Below are positions 2,740-4,188 of a stretch of DNA of 33,788 bases, piece by piece. Each line of letters starts with the position of its first letter. Within the stretch, counting starts at the first letter, position 1. The stretch is from Candidatus Methanomethylophilaceae archaeon. GTDB lineage: Archaea; Thermoplasmatota; Thermoplasmata; Methanomassiliicoccales; Methanomethylophilaceae. Location: contig JAGBGN010000100.1 of assembly GCA_017935945.1 (NCBI GenBank), forward strand, positions 1 through 33,788. Direction: 5' to 3'. The position numbers were made by a program, and so were the translations under genes. Below the pieces are notes generated by a model. That model ran no database searches, was not told the origin of the DNA, and worked only from the letters and a program-made list of their open reading frames with translations.

Positions 2740-4188
2740 ATGTAGGAACTACCTCTGGGAATCGGAGACTTCAGGACCGTCCGCGATAACGAGATGTACT
2801 ATGTGGACAAGACCGCGTCCGTGGCCGGATTGATCCGCGACATGATGCACGGCCATCAACTGGTGACGGCGCCCCATGGTTTCGGGAAGAGTCTGATGAT
2901 GAGTGCGGTGGATGCATTCCTGAACATCGACTACCGCGGCAACATCTGGTTCGACAGACTGGATATCTCGGAGGATCACGACCTGGACATCCACAGGAAC
3001 GCATACCCCGTGGTGTCCATGGACCTCAGCCGTGTTGATCCCGAGGACATCGAAGGCTCCATGCCCATCCTGGTATCGGAACTGTTCCTCGAACATGGAT
3101 GTGTGTCGGGGCCCGAGCACACACTCATCGACCTGTGCCGCATGAAGAGCGAACCCGATGGATCCAGGGTGTTCGTACTGATCGACAACTACGACCGCCC
3201 CATCGTAGATGCCGTGGATGAGGAGACCCGGAAAAAGAACAGCGTTTTCATCAACCGCTTTCTCCACGGGATCGTAGGATCCGACTTCCCCGTATCCGTG
3301 TTGCTCTCCGGGATCATGCGTATGGATGGGGATTCCCTGGACGTGTTCGATGTCCAATACCTCCACGAACCCCTCCACTCCAGAAACCTCGGATTCACCC
3401 GTGGGGACATAACGGAGTTACTGAAGGAGTACTTGTATCCCAAGGGGATCGACGACATATTCGAATGGTACGGGGGCTACCGCTGTGGGGACCTGGAACT
3501 ATGCAATCCATCGAGCGTCATCCAGCATGTGGACAGTCTTTTCGAGATCGAGCGCTACATGCCCCCTGATGGAAAGGACCGGATACTGCATGAATACGTC
3601 ATCGAGAGAATCGGTCGTACTCCCTATCGCCTTGGTTCCGACCTGGAATCCCTGATGTCCAGAGGATGGATCGATACATGCACAGACCTGGGGTCCGCCT
3701 ATCCCGTACCCGGGGTCCAGCGCGATACCGTTTCCGCGATGATACTGAACGGATACCTCTCCGCAGTGAGAATCGGATCCGCACATCCCGGGGAGTACCG
3801 GGTCCGCATACCCAATGTGGAGGTCTACACCCTGTTCTCGGAGGCGATAGAGGAAGTCCTGGACGACCCTGAATGCTGTATCCCCACCATCAAGGACCTT
3901 GCAAACGGTATCCTGGAAGAACGCATGGATGATGACCCCCTATCCATGGTGCCCGTAATCACGAGGTTGATGAACTCCCATATCTTCGAGGATGAGGAGA
4001 CCGTACACATCTTCATCCTGTACATGAACTCCCTCCTCAAAGGGGGGTTCATAGCCACCACTGAGAGACTCAATGGTGGGGAACGCATGGACGTAGTGGT
4101 GAAAGCCACGGTCGATGGAAGAGAGGTGCTCAGACTTGCAATGATGGGTGGTGATGTCAGACCCGAGGACATCTGGGACACCATGTGA
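2740..4188 (+). CDS. AAA-ATPase-like / PD-(D/E)XK protein with TAG as second codon (possible pyrrolysine)
   Basis: The protein belongs to the AAA-ATPase_like family that usually ends in a PDDEXK_9 (DUF1703) nuclease domain. From the open ATG at 2794 it would start MYYVDKT, which is inside the family's conserved opening. In the same frame, the preceding codons read ATG-TAG-GAA-CTA-CCT-CTG-GGA, giving M-*-ELPLGIGDF-RTVRDNE, the normal family N-terminus, with TAG where relatives often have Lys or Arg. If TAG is read as pyrrolysine the protein is 482 residues.

Walker A is GFGKS (about 47-51). The Walker B segment is LIDNYD (about 148-152), where the family usually has LIDEYD, so the catalytic Glu is Asn. 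The C-terminal part keeps NSLLKGGF and ERMDVVV but lacks a clear E-x-K nuclease motif. It may therefore be a degenerate member. A TATA-like TCAAATACC lies about 27 bases upstream of 2740. It converges on clcA-like gene 4203-5459. Confidence 0.7.
2743..2745 (+). other. In-frame TAG codon, candidate pyrrolysine site
   Basis: TAG directly follows ATG 2740-2742. Sequence conservation of the family resumes on the first codon after it (ELPLGIGDF). No gene in this window uses TAG as its terminal stop. Decoding as pyrrolysine, low-level readthrough, or a true nonsense mutation with restart at 2794 are all possible. Confidence 0.5.

Follow-up and report, generated by a model that had tools for sequence, protein, structure and literature searches.

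A TAG second codon, most likely read as pyrrolysine, in an AAA-ATPase-like gene of a Methanomethylophilaceae archaeon

Introduction

The closest described systems are archaea that use TAG as a sense codon for pyrrolysine (Pyl). In 'Ca. Methanomethylophilus alvus', 1.6% of stops are TAG, 16 Pyl proteins were predicted outside the methylamine methyltransferases, including one ATPase-domain and one Sel1-repeat protein, and in-frame TAG was argued to be stable (Borrel et al. 2014, PMC4153887). In M. luminyensis, TAG accounts for 11.3% of stops and no non-methyltransferase Pyl candidates were found (PMC4153887). The screen in 'Ca. M. alvus' joined two neighbouring coding sequences that share a BLASTP hit, so that it was blind to a TAG at codon 2. 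In 2025, Kivenson et al. (Science) reportedly described 'Pyl code' archaea, in which every TAG stands for pyrrolysine, with confirmation by proteomics.

Here we describe a gene with TAG as its second codon in a window of 33,788 nucleotides, the whole stretch of DNA analysed, from a gut-type methanogenic archaeon. The genome resembles that of 'Ca. M. alvus' in its very low use of TAG stops and in Pyl proteins beyond the methyltransferases; the gene and the genome are different, and the part of the genome sampled here uses TAG stops even more sparingly. It resembles the 'Pyl code' archaea in that TAG appears as a sense codon genome-wide, which is known here from sequence and there reportedly from proteomics. 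The mechanism is thus not new and is already known in relatives; what is new is which gene and genome are concerned and where in the gene the codon lies.

Results and discussion

On the forward strand of the window, an ATG at 2740-2742 is followed in frame by TAG at 2743-2745 as codon 2, and the frame then stays open up to a TGA at 4186-4188. With TAG counted as sense, the frame and the profile match define a PF09820 AAA-ATPase-like gene of 482 codons at 2740-4188 (+). The codons from 2740 are ATG TAG GAA CTA CCT CTG GGA ATC GGA GAC TTC AGG ACC GTC CGC GAT AAC GAG and lead without a break to the next in-frame ATG at 2794-2796, the mechanical start of the open reading frame. The original prediction had placed TAG as the second codon in frame with a conserved N-terminus, and both this reading and the residue string it gave for the codons after TAG were correct. 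The 16 residues between TAG and ATG 2794 (ELPLGIGDFRTVRDNE, 2746-2793, +) are the conserved PF09820 opening, which is missing if the start is set at 2794. The PF09820 match from 2794 scored 67.3 bits and began at profile position 15, whereas from 2746 it scored 84.2 bits and began at profile position 1, against a Pfam cut-off of 26.1; the opening therefore adds 17 bits, and an annotation from 2794 does lose the start of the family domain, as had been claimed. Furthermore, the opening keeps seven of the nine columns conserved in relatives, compared with 45/94 elsewhere in the AAA part and 41/107 in the remainder of the protein, and its codon score of 0.30 per codon is like that of the rest of the gene. 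Since the opening is better kept than the translated rest, it should itself be translated, unless the stop is very recent. Despite approximately 25% identity to relatives, no TAA, TGA, or frameshift occurs over 480 codons. TGA makes up about 2% and TAA 1.3% of intergenic triplets, so an open frame of this length is not due to chance. The coding score per codon lies at the 26th percentile, inside the range of the other genes. Most likely, then, the gene is complete and starts at ATG 2740.

The upstream sequence points to the same start. Among 188 genes of this genome with free upstream DNA, those that lack a Shine-Dalgarno site have a distinct A+T maximum at −28 to −23, as is typical where transcripts are leaderless and have a TATA box; a set of 18 genes had been too small for the motif search. 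A TATA-like box, TTCAAATA, is located at 2709-2716 (+), at −31 to −24 relative to ATG 2740, which is how leaderless genes of this genome are spaced. Scores as high as that of ATG 2740 were reached by just 3.5% of the ATGs in the window. The best predicted positions in the region were 2737-2739, with a predicted transcription start at about 2737-2740, so that the transcript is probably leaderless or nearly so. At ATG 2794, neither a TATA-like box at leaderless spacing nor a Shine-Dalgarno site was present, and the upstream score was weaker.

The catalytic motifs of the protein are partly degenerate. An alignment with relatives showed that a remnant of the Walker A motif, GFGKS, with the GKS of PF09820, is kept at 2878-2892 (+). 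The Walker B motif at 3184-3189 (+) reads Asp-Asn, whereas all 13 aligned relatives have Asp-Glu. What remains of a PD-(D/E)XK nuclease domain at 4078-4185 (+) keeps the Asp, but E-x-K has become A-x-M and the C-terminus is cut short; accordingly, the protein has no Pfam match to PF08011 (PDDEXK_9), which the aligned relatives do match. Both defects, the replaced Walker B Glu and the missing nuclease motif, had been noticed in the original prediction. Compared with PF09820 proteins that carry PF08011, the window protein is alike in its match across the whole AAA domain, in Walker A, and in the opening motif, and differs in the lost Walker B Glu, the lost E-x-K, and the truncated C-terminus. 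It is probably a divergent PF09820 member devoid of ATPase and nuclease activity, and the degenerate Walker B and nuclease sites show that constraint has been relaxed. PADLOC assigned the gene to no defence family, and a PDB search by sequence gave no match. A structure model (mean pLDDT 74.8) matched AAA+/STAND proteins weakly, with TM-scores below 0.5; residues 1-9 were poorly predicted and give little information on residue 2.

These losses, together with the coding score in the lower part of the range, are what would be expected if the TAG were a recent nonsense mutation in a gene being lost, which would yield no product or a shorter protein from 2794. In addition, one of the nine other PF09820 matches in this genome has an internal TGA, so that copies of the family do decay. 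On the other hand, the long undisrupted frame at such low identity, its coding codon usage, the conservation of the segment before 2794, and the lack of start signals at 2794 all speak against decay, and TAG does not function as a stop here (see below). Because TAG is sense here, the TAG codon itself is no evidence of decay. Simple decay, which the original prediction had entertained, is therefore a weak explanation, and we consider it unlikely. The gene looks more like a diverged, catalytically dead family member than a corpse.

The genome encodes the machinery for pyrrolysine: a synthetase (PylS), the synthesis enzyme PylB, and a tRNA-Pyl with a CTA anticodon directly upstream of pylS. The tRNA was missed by ARAGORN and was located by aligning a known tRNA-Pyl sequence. 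The N-terminal domain of PylS was sought and was absent, as is known for this order. Two MtmB genes and one MtbB gene are present, each with one in-frame TAG. These methyltransferases are like the window gene in having an in-frame TAG that would be decoded by the same machinery in the same genome, but their pyrrolysine is conserved and catalytic, whereas that of the window gene is sporadic and stands at a variable N-terminal residue.

The use of TAG as a terminator was surveyed with a codon-usage gene caller on 510 kb of this genome. Among 494 open reading frames, 421 ended in TGA, 63 in TAA, and 10 in TAG. The ten TAG-ended frames comprised three methyltransferases, three antisense artefacts (L061, L069, and L145, rejected as genes), a tRNA-splicing endonuclease (EndA), a Proton_antipo_M subunit, and two possible stops, namely pylB and a small membrane protein, whose frames extend for 19 and 23 further residues, respectively. 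The next in-frame stops behind real stops, taken as a neutral mix, were 288 TGA, 116 TAA, and 75 TAG (75/479). About 76 TAG ends would thus be expected, against at most two among about 490 frames able to end so. Termination at TAG may persist in part at pylB and the small membrane protein. The pylB gene (L051:3975-5093, minus strand, contig C81) ends in TAG just before the ATG of the next gene, with a TAA beyond the extension; this TAG is a possible self-regulating or residual stop.

TAG occurs as a sense codon in conserved genes other than methyltransferases. EndA gave two matches in the genome, which are the two domains of one fused single-copy gene (L056:2840-3892, minus strand, contig C4) whose one in-frame TAG aligns with a Lys that hardly varies among its relatives. 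Nearly all relatives searched have EndA as an unbroken frame. In G011, a genome of the same genus, a TAG stands at a different EndA position that is Gln in its close relatives. An ATG directly after the TAG would allow the gene to be split into two polypeptides or subunits; such a split is remotely conceivable, but the G011 case and the antiporter subunit leave no such way out. The latter, a Proton_antipo_M/NuoL-like subunit (L149:8052-8759, plus strand, contig C48), reads through an in-frame TAG into the conserved motif VGFGTKVGFVPMHTWLPDAH (HTWLPDAH), and its frame runs off the contig. In G006, also of the genus, the longest TAG-ended frames extend as coding sequence for 73-2367 residues, whereas in G047, from another family of the order, TAG ends 24 of 168 frames (14%), mostly with short non-coding extensions. 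The loss of TAG stops is therefore a property of the genus, perhaps of the family, and not of the whole order. In this genus, TAG is thus read as sense, presumably as pyrrolysine. A very large protein frame in G006 (L189:6783-20000, plus strand) is crossed by two or more TAG codons and is coding to either side of them.

This recurrence also bears on the quality of the assembly. The genome is a draft of 136 contigs (1.57 Mb), and a single base-calling or assembly error at codon 2 of this metagenome contig would suffice to turn a sense codon, for example AAG or TGG, into TAG, at a position where relatives have Arg, Lys, or Trp. The codon-2 TAG is known from one draft assembly of the species, so that a base error or a strain-specific mutation is possible. 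However, TAGs of this kind turn up elsewhere at sense positions, both in this genome and in further ones of the genus, and a member of the same protein family in at least one other species (L093) carries one as well, which makes an error quite improbable.

The relatives of the gene were compared at codon 2. This genome contains ten PF09820 matches, and the genus many more. A search of genome contigs for close orthologues found as its sole match a distant one, in Prevotella. The opening of the relatives follows the pattern M-R-x-L-P-[IVM]-G-x-x-D-F, and the window gene fits it, except that TAG takes the second place. There, most relatives have Arg (AGG, AGA, CGG, CGT), and one each has Lys (AAA, L040) and Trp (TGG, L036); the original prediction had named Lys or Arg as frequent here. 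It had also proposed to test for recurrent TAG or Lys at codon 2. Arg prevailed, Lys occurred once, and TAG at codon 2 was found in none of the aligned relatives and occurs in the window gene alone. Such a distribution indicates sporadic codon capture and not a conserved Pyl site. The absence of TAG in relatives counts against a functionally required pyrrolysine, not against decoding. Two PF09820 members of the genus, L093 (minus strand, G021) and L109 (codon 501, G001), carry a TAG in frame close to the C-terminus. In this genome, several PF09820 copies that closely resemble one another sit on short contigs (C45, C67, C74, C100, and C126), in some cases at the contig end, an arrangement suggesting that the family multiplied recently.

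Taken together with the start signals and the conserved opening, the presence of the Pyl machinery, the near absence of TAG as a terminator, and the TAGs that replace Lys, Gln, and other sense codons in conserved genes of the genome and genus other than methyltransferases bear out the proposal of pyrrolysine at residue 2. It is very likely that the gene starts at ATG 2740 and that its TAG is read as pyrrolysine by the ordinary machinery of a genus in which TAG has almost lost its stop function. Residue 2 is most likely pyrrolysine; both the identity of the inserted residue and the production of the protein are what we infer from these observations. Translation would initiate at 2740, and UAG would then be decoded by the cell's ordinary tRNA-Pyl and PylRS, with no special signal required because TAG is already sense in such a genome. 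Low-level readthrough, the other version of the original prediction, is less likely than this ordinary decoding. Point mutation would most likely have created the TAG, starting either from a Lys (AAG) or a Trp (TGG) codon or, by way of one of these, from the common Arg codon AGG. The mutation would have struck a loosely constrained position and been tolerated because TAG is read as a lysine derivative. The TAG is best seen as a chance mutation made tolerable by the altered code.

An amber codon directly behind the start might instead serve as a switch, the protein being made only when pyrrolysine, and hence methylamine metabolism, is available; such a position would tie expression strictly to charged tRNA-Pyl. 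In a systematic search for start-proximal TAG, start-like sites before the first upstream in-frame stop were found in 4/55 cases for TAG versus 10/114 and 13/241 for TAA or TGA. There is no excess of TAG over TAA and TGA, and a special regulatory role is therefore unlikely. In addition, relatives lack TAG at codon 2, and the supply of pyrrolysine is probably constitutive because essential genes need it. Expression conditional on pyrrolysine is thus highly improbable, and it is very doubtful that strict dependence on charged tRNA-Pyl would let the gene for this AAA-like protein sense the supply of methylamine and pyrrolysine or act as a switch for it. Ordinary decoding of a sense TAG is the reading we retain.

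The case has a consequence for annotation. In archaea that decode TAG as pyrrolysine, a TAG close to the start leaves no sign of a fusion; gene callers shift the start downstream, so that standard annotation silently trims the gene. With TAG nearly no longer a stop in the genus and present in single-copy EndA and a proton-antiporter subunit, genomes of the genus should be annotated with TAG as sense.

A Sel1-repeat gene on the minus strand of the window (12286-12561) may start at 12561; it would then also have an in-frame TAG, at 12537-12535, and read MNDIAELT-TAG-MAEGGDTEAMYRLG. The repeat helix seems to extend into the residues ahead of the TAG, which makes this a possible second Pyl gene of the window.
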